DNA from: Eimeria necatrix
Lineage: Eukaryota; Apicomplexa; Conoidasida; Eucoccidiorida; Eimeriidae
Length of the DNA stretch: 64,000 nt
Assembly (NCBI RefSeq): GCF_000499385.1
Contig: NW_013654536.1
Span: 1-64,000, forward strand
Direction: 5' to 3'
Below are positions 3,554-35,364 of this stretch, one piece after another. The translations under genes were made by a program, and so were the position numbers. Position 1 is the stretch's first letter, and each line of letters starts with the position of its first letter. A model generated the notes under the pieces. The model was not told the DNA's origin, made no database searches, and saw nothing but the letters and a program-made list of their open reading frames with translations.

Positions 3554-5729
3554 ATGCGCAGCGGCAATGAGGTGTCAGAGATTGCAGTTGGGCGTACGTG
3601 TGGCTCCGTTGAAGCGTTTGCCACATCTGATGTTGTATGTGAGGCTGCAGTGCCTGCCACAGCGAGCTTGGGGGAAAGCACTCTGGATGAGCCTTTGCGG
3701 TCATTCCAGCTGCCGTCAGCGCCTGTACACATTTCAATGATAAGCCCAGAGGCGGTGCGCGCCCATACACGGTCGCTTTTGTGCAAATCATGGTTAGGAA
3801 GTGGTGTAACAGCTGGCGAAGCTTCTCTGCGGACTGCGTTGCTTTCAGCAGCAACAGGTGATGCAGCTAGTGCTGCAGGTGACCCATCCTGCAGCAGTAG
3901 TTCAAGACTCTTGCTTGCCGTAGGCGAGGAAGGTCACGCCTGCGTAGTGGAGTGGGAGGGAATTTATAACGTGCGTCTTGTTGAGAAGCCAAATGAGTCA
4001 GCGCAACAATGCGCACCAGAACATGAGGTCGTCGATAGGGAGGAAATGGAAGTCGGCGTAAAGTTTCTTCCGATCGGGAAAAAAACCAACGATGGCGCTT
4101 CTCCTGTGCAAGAGGCAATAGTGGACACTCCTTCTTGGTGCAGGGCTGCGTATAAGCTTCCAGGTCCAATTGCGGCGGCCAGCACTAATCCTTTGTGTCA
4201 CAGTCTGTTGGCTTTTGGGGGGAGGGAGAATGATGCGAAAGTTGTGGATTTAGACTATGGAAAGCTTTTGTGGTCGGCAAAAAACGTGAAGGCCAGTTTT
4301 CTTGGCCTTCGGTGCCAGGTGGCGATTACTCAAATTGATTGGCTGCTGCCGATTCACCCCATGGTAATAGCTGTGGGAACTGCGAAAGGCGCACTGCGTT
4401 TCTATGATTTGCGATGCCAGCGCAGGCCAGTGCTAGAGGTGTGTGAAGCCACACAGGAAAGAAGGCCTGTGACAGCCCTGTGTGTCCGCCCGACAGCTGA
4501 GGTACTGCAAACTAAGACACACATGAGGGTCGCTTTAGCAAGAGCTGCAGAGTCTTCAGCGGTTTCTGTTTGCCGCGATGTTGCGATGGAAGGTTTGTCA
4601 TCAAAAGGTTTTGACAAAGACGGTCAATTTTCTAAATGTAAGGGGCCTCCTGAAGACCAGAAAGGCCCCAGTTGCGATGCCACCACAGCAGCTGATACAG
4701 CACAAGAAGTGCTCTCACGTTGTAGTGGCAAGGACACCGCCACCGTATACTACGCAGACTCATATGGGATGATCTACGGCATAAGGGTGCAGGGTGGCTC
4801 AGCCTTGCTGCGTCTTGCTGACAAAACGCTTCCTAAGTATAATCCATCGTCGTATCGGTCTCTCAGTGATCAGCCTCACGCATATCACTCTGCCGAAGTA
4901 AAGCGGAAGCTCATTTCTGCAATGTTGGATAAACAAAGAGGAAAGCTGACCTCTAGGAAAAATGATCATCCAGTTTCAGCCGCTGCTTGCAGCGACTTGC
5001 AACTTGCCGCAGTTTCAGTGGGAGGATACAAAGAAGCTATGGGGGCTATTGTCGGTGAGTGCTGCTTTCCTTTTTTGCTCAGTAGGCACATCAAAAATTT
5101 CACGGAGCCTCCAGGATTTCATTTTCGGTAGCATGTTTTTTCTTCCTCACAGGCTTAGGACTGGATCCAGCTGGGGAGTTTCTTGTGGCTGTGGGCTTGG
5201 GGCGCTATGCATACGTTTTTGATGCAAAGTCCCGGAAGCTACGCGAAAAGGTGAGGATTCTGACCTGTTTGGCGGCCTCATGTGTGGTTGATGCACATAG
5301 AAGTCAAAAGGTGAGTCTCTGCATGGACAGTCTAGTTGCTTTTTGTTGCAGGTTTTTCTGAAGCAAAAGCTTACCTGTCTTTTGTCTGGAGGCGGAGTAG
5401 GGGCTGGAGGAGTCAAGCGCTGTACGGCTACGAAAGGCAGTACACACACAAAACAGGAAAGTGGCAGCAGCTCAGATCTCAACAGTTCCGGTGAGGAGCA
5501 AGGCAGCGAATGTGATAGCTCCCTTGCTTCTGAAGCGGCAACTGATGATGAGACAGAAAGTAGCCGACGCCCTGTTGAAGCTGCGGGTGAGCCCTGCGTG
5601 CTCTCAACAAGCTCAGATGATGAACAGTTGAGGTGCACGGCCTCAGGTTCTCAAGTGCACAGGCGCACACAACGTAGCATGCCGAAAAAGCGAAAGCGCT
5701 CTACTCATGAAGGGGGCGCTGCACGTTGA
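3554..5729 (+). CDS. WDR74/NSA1-like WD40 ribosome-biogenesis protein
   Basis: Three exons, 3554-5054, 5153-5250 and 5352-5729, give about 658 residues. Introns are GT-AG and phases 1 and 0 match. The start is the first ATG in the long frame; the frame is open upstream to a GTG at 3494, so a further 5' exon is possible. The beta-propeller core carries the WDR74/Nsa1 signature: FGGRENDAKVVDLD, then a SAKNVKASFLGLR stretch, then GTAKGALRFYDLR. The second exon reads LGLDPAGEFLVAVGLGRY, a late propeller blade. The third begins VFLKQKLTCLL, continues into a Ser/Glu-rich acidic tail and ends with PKKRKR, a classical nuclear localisation signal. In yeast and human the family is nucleolar and acts in 60S pre-ribosome maturation (Nsa1 particle, with the AAA ATPase Rix7/NVL). 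Inserts between blades are long, as is common in coccidia. Confidence 0.85.
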
Positions 5730-26990: not shown

Positions 26991-28294
26991 CTAAGGCCGA
27001 GGGGGTGACGGTTGGTTAGCCCAAGTGACGAGTGACAAACCATCCCCAACCGGGAGTAAAACCTGCAAACACAGCAACGTGCAAGATACCATTCAATGTA
27101 CAAACTGCCCAAGAATGGAGTACAGTCAATACTGAAAGCTGCACTGCCATGCACGCACTCCATCACACCACGCATGCGCTTGCACGCGACGTGGGTGGAT
27201 AACGTTTGCTCTGTGTCATCCGGCATGTCTTCCTTACGTATACCGCTTACATGAGAAATGCGAGCATCGTTGCGCAGAGTTTCCCGAAGGGTCTGCATAC
27301 ACTCTGCAACTTTTGCATATCTTCTGGCCCGTGCAGATTCCCACTGTGTGGGGTGGTTCTCCCACCACGCGATTCTTTTTCCATCCTGACCTTTGAGCCA
27401 TAAAGTGTTGTCTATCACGAGGACTCCAGTAGGGGCAAGCAGAGGACGCTGTGGGTTTAGTATAGCCGAAATGTACTCTAGGTATCTTTTCTTTTCAGCA
27501 TCGAGATAGATGAGGTCAAAGCCACCATCTGGCAGCCTGCTGCCTGATGTTTCCTCATCCCTGGTGGGTTCTGATGCGTTTCCCCAAACAGGTGGGCTCT
27601 TCAACACCTTGGGGAGAGACTGCAGCCACTGCATTGCGTCCGCCTCCATCAAAGTAACAAATCGACCCCATGGGGAAGAGCTCACCAGCCGGCGGGCTGC
27701 TGTTGCTGCTCGTGGGTCTTTCTCTATGGCCAAAATACCAAAGCACCCATCTTCACCCCCTTCCTCACAAACAAGGCCCTCAGCTAGAGCTAGGGCTGCA
27801 GGCAAGCAAAAAGAATATACGAACTGAAATGGCACCGGTCGAACCACTTGCAGCTCTAAGAAGAGATGTGTCAAGAAGAGAGGCACATCACTGTAAAACA
27901 CGCTGCAGGAGTGTCCCACAGAAGCTCCAGAGAATTAGAAGGCACCACAACATGGTTCGACTACGAAATACCCTACTAGAGATGCCAACGAAGGCGCCTA
28001 TTTCAAGGATCGACCGAGGCCTCTTGAGTTTGCTGATTGCTGAGAGAATGCGCGAGTGCAGAGGCCCCGACCAGAACTGTTGGACCTCATGTTGCAAGCC
28101 AGTTAAGTCTTTTGCCCTCCGTCGCCCTTCTTCTAGTAGCGTTTCTTGTCCTGAGGGGGAAGACGCAGCGGCTGCAACGTTGTGAGACCACTGCCAGCAG
28201 TCTTGAGTTGTAGCATTGCAGACGCGCCCACAATCCCCAACATGAGCCTGCTGGGACAACTCCTTGGTTGGTACATGCTTCAAAAACGAAGCGT
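26991..28294 (-). CDS. TrmR/CCoAOMT-type SAM-dependent O-methyltransferase module
   Basis: Exons 28294-27977, 27795-27251 and 27062-26991 (stop) join in phases 1 and 0. The joins rebuild the family motifs across introns. Motif I reads EIGAFVGIS plus TLALAEGL. Then come the acidic residue after motif I (IEKDP), the metal-binding segment FDLIYLDAEKKRYLEY, VLVIDNTLW, and the C-terminal VLLPVGDGLSL, whose first residues come from the last short exon. This is the Methyltransf_3 family (cation-dependent O-methyltransferases), which includes bacterial TrmR (YrrM), the enzyme that methylates 5-hydroxyuridine 34 to mo5U. The first exon's acceptor at 28295 is in phase with the donor at 28442 of the upstream rhodanese exon, so this is most simply the C-terminal half of that protein. 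An ATG at 28331 would allow a separate protein without a leader. Other small-molecule methyltransferase roles cannot be excluded. Confidence 0.85.
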
Positions 28295-28442
28295 CTGCAT
28301 ATACACACGAGCCTTTATAGTGCGGCAGCATATGCCCAACCCTTCCGCAACATCGTACGCTGTCTTAAGATGCGGCGCAGGACGCGAGAACAGCTACTGC
28401 ATCCTCCAACATCATCCCGCAAAAAGCACATGAGCTTCTTAC

Positions 28443-31083
28443 CAGATACCGTATCGGCGGCAGCAGTGTATTTTAGAGCAGCCAAAAGCTGCTGAGCCCT
28501 CATCGACCATAAACGCCTTTGCTGCAGCAATTTTTGGTGTGTATGCCTGACTTGCATCCGCCTCTGAGTCTGTGCATGAATTTCTCTTTTACCATCCTCC
28601 GCTCCTTCCCGGGCACATGCTGACGAACAGAAAACCCCAATTGAGGAGCAGCACGAGGAGCACAGCACAACACGCCGACCGCACTGTCTGTTGCTGCAAT
28701 TTACTAAGCGGCCCGAGGGTCCTGAACAGATGGTGCAATGAGTCAACAAATCCGGTGTAATCTGCTGGCACATCCTATGATCGAATACGTAATTACTTCC
28801 CACGAACAAACTCTCCGGTGCAGGAGTATGCGAGCCCATCACTGCGGGATCACATGGCTCTGAGACAGTGCGCTGCTGCAATGTTTCGTTACCGCTGAGA
28901 CCTTCATCTGTTGCACACTCATTGGCATTAGCAGCAGTAAGGTTTTCTGACGCGTATGACCCTTCCTCTTCTGCACCAAGTTTGATCCCTTCGCCCCTAT
29001 CAGACCGTTCCTTGAAGCTCTCGATGTAATTTTTGTATGCTAGGATACCTCCTTTGAGTCGTGTTACCCGAGGAAAACCAAGAATTTGTTTGACGAAAGC
29101 TCCCGCCTTTACACAGCGGATGCCACCTGTGCAGTACATCATTACCTCCACGTCCTTGCTGCTACAACTGCCTTTACTAGAGACAGATCTAGCCTCCCTG
29201 GAAGGAAGCTGAATCCCTGCCCTGGCCAGGGCCTCCTCCAGCGGACCGCCAGAAGCAAATGAATCCGCGAAGGTGAGCGTATCTACACATTGCGATCCTT
29301 TGAAATGGCCGACCGCGTACTCACTCGCATTCCGCATATCCAAAAGTACGACTTTCGGTGTTCGCTGCTTCTGTGGTTGTTGCTCCTGCAACAAGGCCAC
29401 AAGCTTACGATGCCAAACCTCAGGCTCGACCTCCTCTCCGCAGTCTGACCAGTCTAGCGGGCAGTCAAAACCATCCCTCAGCACCTGGTGGCGAGGACGG
29501 ATATGAAGTGCATCAAATGGTGGAGAGCTCCAATATTTGTAGAAGGGGATAAGGCAATCGGGAGTCACCTGAAGACCATCTTCCAGGCCAGGTATCTGCT
29601 GCAGCTCAGCGATGATAGACGCAAACACTGAAGAAGGGACCGCCAACTGGGCATTAATACCCTCTTCTGCTACGTAGGCCCTACCTAGTACTCCTCTAGG
29701 CCCCCAAAGAGCCCTTAGCAGCTCAGCAAGGGCCCTAGGTGAACTTACGCGGAAGAATTTGTACAACGACACAAGCTGGTACGGTGAGGAAGCATCCTCG
29801 TTGCTGTGAGCATGAGCCTGGCAAGAAGACGTGTTAACTAAAGGAGGCGGAAGAGGTACACGCTTGTCGGAAGAAAATGGAAAAGAGGGTAGAGGGGGCT
29901 CCAGTTGAAGCTGCAGTGACAACTGAGCACCCCTAGGGAGACGCAGGATACGCAAGGCAGTGATCCACTGGGCCCCCACTTTGCTGCTGCAGTTCCTGCT
30001 CCCAACATCGTTGCCTTCAGGGTTGTCACTGGCTCTCTTCCACGCAGTGGCACAAGATGCAGAGTGCGGCAGACGCCGGTAAAGGCCGAGTAAGGGTTTA
30101 TAGTGTTCCCTAAGAACCCTTTGAGCTTCTCTATCAGAACTAAGCGGCCACACCGCCGGGAATGGGCACTGCTCTAGACCACTCGATTCCCTGCTATTTG
30201 CTGACAGTCCGGCAGACTTATTAGATTCTTCGATGGGTGAATGCGGTGCCAGTTGGGCCTTCTTCGGCGCAGTCACGCGGGCAGCCAGCTGCATGGGAAT
30301 CCCCTCGTACAAGTTCCCTCCCCATTTGAGAGCCTTACAGACAGATTCCTTCAGGACCTCCAGAAATGGCTGTTGAGGTGAATTGCTGACTGAGCTAAGG
30401 GGTGAGCAATCCTCCGATACTTCGTGAATCTCCCCACCGCGCACCGGCCCGCAATTTTCTGTGGGCTTCTCCACTTGACACTGTAAGTAAGGACTCGTTT
30501 CGGTTTCGCTCTGTAAATCGCGAGGAAATCCAAGTAGACATAAAGGGAGGAATATATGTCGTTTATGGGAGCATGGGGGTAGCTCCAAAGCCCTCCTCGT
30601 CTCCGGCGCTATTTCTACTTGCAAAGGAACAACATCGAGAACTTGGACTTTGGTTGTGTTTCTTCGTAGCTGAAATGTTGCATCAGCTGCTCTTGCTATT
30701 CCAGGCTTTAGCGGGCCGCAGCAAGAAGCGCTTTCCGTTGAGCTCCCAGAGGCCTTATCCCAGCCGACAACAATAGGCAGGCTCTCCACTCTGTGGTTCA
30801 GCCATACGCACCTAGGGCAATCCGATTCGTCACCTGCTGGCCCTCTTAAGTATGATGCAGCGCTGCGTGGCGTATTGCTACGACTGCGGTTACTACGGGC
30901 TGTTGTGGAGCAACCTACCGCAGGCCCACTCTCACAACTGCGCGGCACTAAAAAGGAAGCCCTCGTGGCCCCTGAGTGTCCACAAGCCGGGTTCAATACT
31001 CCATGGAGAAAAAGCAGCAGAAGTAGCCATCGGAGGAGGGCACGCAGGGCAGGACGCTGCTGTGTGTGGGACTCCCTGGGCAT
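28443..31083 (-). CDS. Rhodanese-type tRNA uridine(34) hydroxylase (TrhO/YceA-like), predicted fused to the O-methyltransferase
   Basis: A single exon of 880 codons from the ATG at 31083 to a TCTG/GTAAG donor. Residues 1-35 contain a hydrophobic core (LLRWLLLLLFLHGVL) like a signal peptide, followed by a Ser/Arg-rich, acid-poor stretch, which together resemble a bipartite apicoplast leader. A long low-similarity region follows. The TrhO N-terminal domain begins near residue 435 (SLYKFFRV; EEGINAQLAV near 475). The rhodanese domain has the active loop CTGGIRC at about 651-657, preceded by VLLDMRNASEYAVGHFKG. The C-terminal Cys cluster (HCTICS ... NRQCGRR ... LCSSCC ... FCSSAC) matches the Cys-rich tail of the family. 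Without splicing, the frame stops at 28315. With splicing to 28294 the protein continues as the methyltransferase, total about 1191 residues. In bacteria TrhO makes 5-hydroxyuridine at tRNA position 34 using O2. Confidence 0.88.

Positions 31084-31955: not shown

Positions 31956-35364
<3,409 letters not shown>

Follow-up and report, generated by a model that had tools for sequence, protein, structure and literature searches.

We analyzed a window of 64,000 nucleotides from Eimeria necatrix (positions 1 to 64,000 of contig NW_013654536.1, RefSeq assembly GCF_000499385.1), in which a minus-strand gene running from 31083 to 26991 is predicted to encode the transfer RNA (tRNA) hydroxylase TrhO and an O-methyltransferase of the Methyltransf_3 family in a single chain. 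Four exons (31083-28443, 28294-27977, 27795-27251, and 27062-26991) give a protein of 1191 residues that carries, in order, a leader, the TrhO domains (UPF0176_N, rhodanese, and Rhodanese_C), and the methyltransferase. Exon 1 (28443..31083) supplies the start codon, the hydrophobic leader, an N-terminal domain (29860..30657) recognized in alignments and without a confident Pfam name, and the TrhO domains; exon 2 (27977..28294) supplies a linker and the N-terminal segment of the methyltransferase, with the S-adenosylmethionine (SAM) motif LEIG (28007-27996); exon 3 (27251..27795) holds the methyltransferase core, with DLIYLDAEK (27517-27491) and VIDNTLW (27418-27398); and exon 4 (26991..27062) adds the C-terminal LPVGDGL and the stop codon, which ends at 26991, where a preliminary description of this DNA had placed the end of the gene.

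The UPF0176_N (29482..29781; 59.1 bits, cut-off 26.2), rhodanese (29029..29373; 41 bits, cut-off 22.2), and Rhodanese_C (28612..28800; 49.1 bits, cut-off 26.9) domains of exon 1 all exceed their Pfam cut-offs and keep the order found in TrhO, which is also the top match for this exon in the NCBIfam library. The active-site loop CTGGIR (29133-29116; residue 651 of the model) holds the residues that are essential in Escherichia coli TrhO, namely, C200, T201, G203, and R205 (PMC6599085). The spliced C-terminal part matches Methyltransf_3 (PF01596) at 75.5 bits, with a cut-off of 22, and its SAM and metal-site motifs LEIG, LDAEK, and DNTLW are conserved; motifs of the LDAEK and DNTLW type presumably have a role in metal binding. 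As judged from the sequence, the catalytic motifs of both halves appear to be intact. In a six-frame search of the 44-megabase assembly, PF17773 and PF01596 were each found at one place, at the fusion gene.

The TrhO part is linked to the methyltransferase part by intron 1 (28295..28442; 148 bp, phase 1). The phase 1 GTAAG donor at 28443 and the acceptor at 28295, 148 bp apart, that had been proposed earlier were upheld: exon 1 comprises 2641 bases (1 mod 3), its final base, 28443, stands at a G/GTAAG donor, and the frame behind the TATGCAG acceptor ending at 28295 is open into the methyltransferase. The start of exon 1 and the donor are the same as those in the E. tenella orthologue (P0001), and the methyltransferase is completed by splicing of the two remaining introns, of 181 and 188 bp. 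The annotated E. tenella model uses the same donor and joins at the residue equivalent to acceptor 28151, which has a better pyrimidine tract than 28295. Despite that tract, acceptor 28151 is disfavored by a conserved segment before the SAM motif (resembling W.W[AS]H.VA..ASSPS), kept in 10 of the 11 Eimeria and Cyclospora models and missing from that of E. tenella, and by a profile built from six other species, which gives 454.5 bits to the 28295 version versus 409.9 to the 28151 version. Pfam Methyltransf_3 is neutral between the two (75.5 bits for 28295 versus 76.4 for 28151), and an acceptor AG at 28202 is also frame compatible and would also keep the conserved segment. Sequence comparison thus favors 28295 as the better acceptor. 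The public E. tenella protein apparently lacks the start of the methyltransferase domain (the equivalent of 28294-28151), probably because of the acceptor on which its gene model was built.

With the spliced model as the query, 14 proteins were retrieved, 11 of which, from ten Eimeria species and Cyclospora cayetanensis, carry TrhO domains together with PF01596, the Rhodanese_C label being missing in two of them (P0006 and P0011). Identity to the window protein is 89% for the E. tenella orthologue and 57% for that of Cyclospora. The other three matches, the contig open reading frames (ORFs) P0012-P0014, are without PF01596. When P0014 was used as the query, it retrieved itself and four fused proteins: those of Cystoisospora suis and Besnoitia besnoiti, a metagenomic protein (P0017), and the EukProt entry P0018. 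The search of coccidian proteomes suggested in the preliminary description, for one protein with TrhO, rhodanese, and Methyltransf_3 domains, has accordingly yielded 13 named coccidian proteins with both enzymes in one chain. For P0017, 120 of 139 matches were listed (P0017 included), and among these PF01596 is combined with at least one TrhO domain in 114, the remainder being P0105, P0116, P0122, P0126, P0132, and P0137. Named matches include Vitrella brassicaformis, Ochromonadaceae sp., Phaeothamnion, Triparma, Thalassiosira, Thalassiothrix antarctica, Nitzschia, Ectocarpus, and the red alga Porphyridium aerugineum; eight fused proteins (P0061, P0064, P0070, P0087, P0094, P0112, P0115, and P0130) bear mmetsp or MMETSP labels, which we take to denote a transcriptome project. 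All four domains are present in each of the 21 members selected for alignment A3. Toxoplasma, Plasmodium, piroplasms, and Cryptosporidium were not named among the matches listed in these homologue searches, which were limited by length and shared words, and we do not claim their absence. The fusion is also carried by a EukProt entry (P0095) labeled Alexandrium tamarense, a dinoflagellate; the label may be right, or the scaffold may be a contaminant.

Two adjacent genes could be drawn at this locus, with TrhO ending at 28315 and a separate methyltransferase starting from the ATG at 28331, since unspliced exon 1 reads open to the stop at 28315, the ATG lies in frame ahead of the methyltransferase, and the P0012-P0014 ORFs are without a methyltransferase. 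Against this stand the 13 fused coccidian proteins and the 114 of 120 listed P0017 matches, and, beyond the shared donor, P0012 and P0013 continue into tails that differ from that of the window and open with G-N in place of its G-K, which would fit read-through of a conserved G/GTAA donor. Orthologues consistently encoded as two genes were not seen among the coccidian and algal homologues, and, given the fused orthologues, we regard separate genes as very improbable. The lack of room between the two parts, adduced earlier, is consistent with a fusion but is weak evidence; homology outweighs it, and we accept the fusion because coccidian, metagenomic, and algal homologues, the last from genomic and transcriptome-labeled sources, carry TrhO followed by Methyltransf_3, as had been proposed. 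That the enzyme is encoded as one protein is, in our judgment, nearly certain, and on these comparisons the fusion is real and old, not an accident of gene prediction. Besides the fusion, transcripts that retain intron 1 or splice it at other sites might often arise and would yield TrhO alone or a shortened protein: TrhO would keep all its domains upon retention, seven frame-compatible open acceptors are available (28364, 28313, 28295, 28202, 28172, 28151, and 28145), and the counterpart of 28151 is the acceptor in the E. tenella model. The retained tail is, however, not conserved in P0012 and P0013, and we hold such products to be distinctly improbable.

The preliminary description was aware of no fusion of these families, a statement overtaken by Sakai et al. 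(2019; PMC6599085), who reported that yceA(trhO) and trmR are joined in one gene in Phytophthora sojae, P. ramorum, and Phaeodactylum tricornutum; this stramenopile fusion was one reason why yceA was chosen as a candidate in that work. The coccidian fusion is like these in that both enzymes are encoded by a single gene (the published sequences were not themselves compared); the hosts in that report are stramenopiles, and its excerpted text makes no mention of an apicomplexan member, a leader, or an N-terminal domain. In bacteria, TrhO (E. coli YceA and the Bacillus subtilis protein in the TrhO-tRNA structure 9j5o) is a separate protein, whereas the coccidian one is extended by a leader and an N-terminal domain and is fused to a methyltransferase. 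Among open-licence papers, we found no apicomplexan TrhO-TrmR fusion and none joining 5-methoxyuridine with the apicoplast or rhodanese and YrrM with the plastid. The architecture itself had been reported before; within the reach of our searches, the novelty lies in its occurrence in coccidia and chromerids, in the predicted apicoplast site, and in the N-terminal domain that fusions share.

This domain, upstream of TrhO, is common to the coccidian and several algal fusions in alignments. PB1 (PF00564, cut-off 23.6) matches four proteins below the cut-off at the corresponding place (P0052, 18.1 bits; P0046, 15.5; P0051, 14; and P0047, 11.8); at E values up to 1, it was found in 1 of the 21 members of A3 and was not listed for exon 1 of the window. 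A structure model of the N-terminal piece of the window protein has confident strands (mean predicted local distance difference test score, 71.6; predicted template modeling score, 0.65), and a structure search with it gave no PDB match. We treat the domain, weakly PB1-like in those four proteins, as a lead.

A leader was scored by hydropathy alone, as a run of 13 residues that starts within the first 17 and has a mean hydropathy of 2.0 or more, and a hydrophobic start was found in the window protein and in 9 of the 13 proteins P0001-P0013; the hydrophobic stretch of the Cystoisospora protein lies at residue 30. An ORF running divergently (31956-33665, plus strand), its start codon separated by 872 bases from that of the fusion gene, matches MnmA at 48.1 bits and also has a hydrophobic start; a SufE-like stretch in this neighbor scores weakly (20.4 bits versus a cut-off of 27), and a Plasmodium MnmA with a SufE-like part has already been described (PMC10219651). 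Two wobble-uridine enzymes back to back are suggestive of a shared site but are not proof of one. An apicoplast contig was not found in the assembly: SufB and SufD were two pieces on one contig (C574), and small-subunit ribosomal RNA matched three places, of which only L083 (48% guanine plus cytosine) was checked. We infer that the apicoplast is the likely site of the enzyme. Apicoplast MnmA and TilS are likewise enzymes of bacterial type that are encoded in the nucleus and act on position 34 of apicoplast tRNA; their chemistry is different, producing 2-thiouridine and lysidine, respectively (PMC10219651 and PMC12069591). The Plasmodium apicoplast has 25 tRNA isotypes, and the reading of four codons by one tRNA has been credited to wobble, to superwobbling with an unmodified uridine at position 34 (U34), and to modifications (PMC12069591, in whose excerpted text TrhO is not mentioned). 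5-Hydroxyuridine (ho5U), named as one of the modifications that could be anticipated in Plasmodium organelles, was below detection (PMC6171970).

On balance, we favor an apicoplast-targeted, single-chain, two-step wobble-uridine tRNA enzyme that would form ho5U34 and then 5-methoxyuridine (mo5U34). In a reaction that consumes O2, the TrhO half would hydroxylate U34, forming 5-hydroxyuridine; the SAM-dependent O-methyltransferase at the C terminus, of the cation-dependent type, would turn ho5U34 into 5-methoxyuridine, the reaction carried out by TrmR in B. subtilis; ho5U34 may be handed over between the two sites; and the leader would send the enzyme to the apicoplast, where few tRNAs must read whole four-codon boxes. 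For the chemistry itself, from U34 through ho5U to mo5U, the likelihood is high.

Several observations weigh against this interpretation. The NCBIfam TrhO model scores 125.3 bits (E value, 2.6e-36) on exon 1, below its curated cut-off of 170; that cut-off was set for prokaryotic proteins, the metagenomic homologue P0017 passes it at 170.8 bits, and the shortfall is not taken as decisive. Part of the methyltransferase N terminus is dropped in the E. tenella model. The methyltransferase scores nearer to the PaMTH1, Synechocystis, and Coxiella O-methyltransferases than to B. subtilis TrmR (YrrM; structures 5zw3 and 5zw4), with 29.7 bits for TrmR versus 44.2 for other O-methyltransferases in one search and 100.6 versus 161.9 in another, and structure comparison ranks TrmR below many other O-methyltransferases. 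The name TrmR, given in the earlier description, is used here for a presumed function, orthology being likewise presumed. The fusion could be real and the methyltransferase substrate could be another nucleoside or a small molecule, as the best sequence and structure matches, to small-molecule or unassigned O-methyltransferases and not to TrmR, would suggest; we consider this quite unlikely. As to location, P0003, P0004, P0007, and P0008 (4 of the 13) are without an N-terminal hydrophobic stretch, although these models may be truncated, and the Besnoitia protein shows none. Because Phytophthora has the fusion but, to our knowledge, no plastid, the architecture is not confined to plastid-bearing lineages, and other lineages may use it elsewhere. 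A bifunctional enzyme acting outside the apicoplast, in the mitochondrion, the cytosol, or the secretory route, would accommodate these last observations but sits less well with the hydrophobic starts of the window protein, of 9 of the 13 relatives, and of the MnmA-type neighbor or, for the mitochondrion, with the finding that the Plasmodium organelle is without tRNA genes (PMC6171970), and we judge it unlikely.

A broader and more speculative proposal, which we advance as somewhat doubtful, is that coccidian apicoplasts and red-lineage plastids read four-codon boxes with mo5U34 made by one imported enzyme, with site-to-site hand-over and docking by the PB1-like N-terminal domain. If this were true, the assumption of unmodified U34 (superwobbling) in such organelles would be replaced, and for coccidia and red-lineage algae an imported two-step ho5U/mo5U enzyme offers an alternative that is specific and can be tested. 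Under the favored interpretation, a likely function could also be assigned to proteins of Eimeria, Cyclospora, Besnoitia, Cystoisospora, and Vitrella whose present annotation is hypothetical, rhodanese-domain, or transmembrane.

The history of the two halves was compared in trees made by a quick method, without bootstrap, that for the methyltransferase comprising 38 fused sequences and 45 of 80 bacterial ones. A seven-member coccidian clade was recovered in the trees of both halves (support of 99 in each), as was a diatom/Triparma clade (support of 100 in each), and 11 ochrophyte-type rows form one clade in the methyltransferase tree and need two changes in the TrhO tree; from these trees the halves appear largely to have traveled together. 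Bacterial methyltransferases are split from the fused ones by a branch with a support of 83, with Porphyridium adjoining the bacteria, and a single origin of the fusion is allowed, not shown. The bacterial candidates were the best 80 of at least 583, of which 76 are Bacteroidota by their titles, and TrhO lay within the fetched flank of the methyltransferase, unfused, at 1 of these 80 loci, a count that has no bearing on other bacteria. At that locus (L080), in a Cyclobacteriaceae metagenome-assembled genome, TrhO occupies 1099-2102 in two overlapping frame pieces, about 2.2 kilobases from the methyltransferase at 4294-4929.
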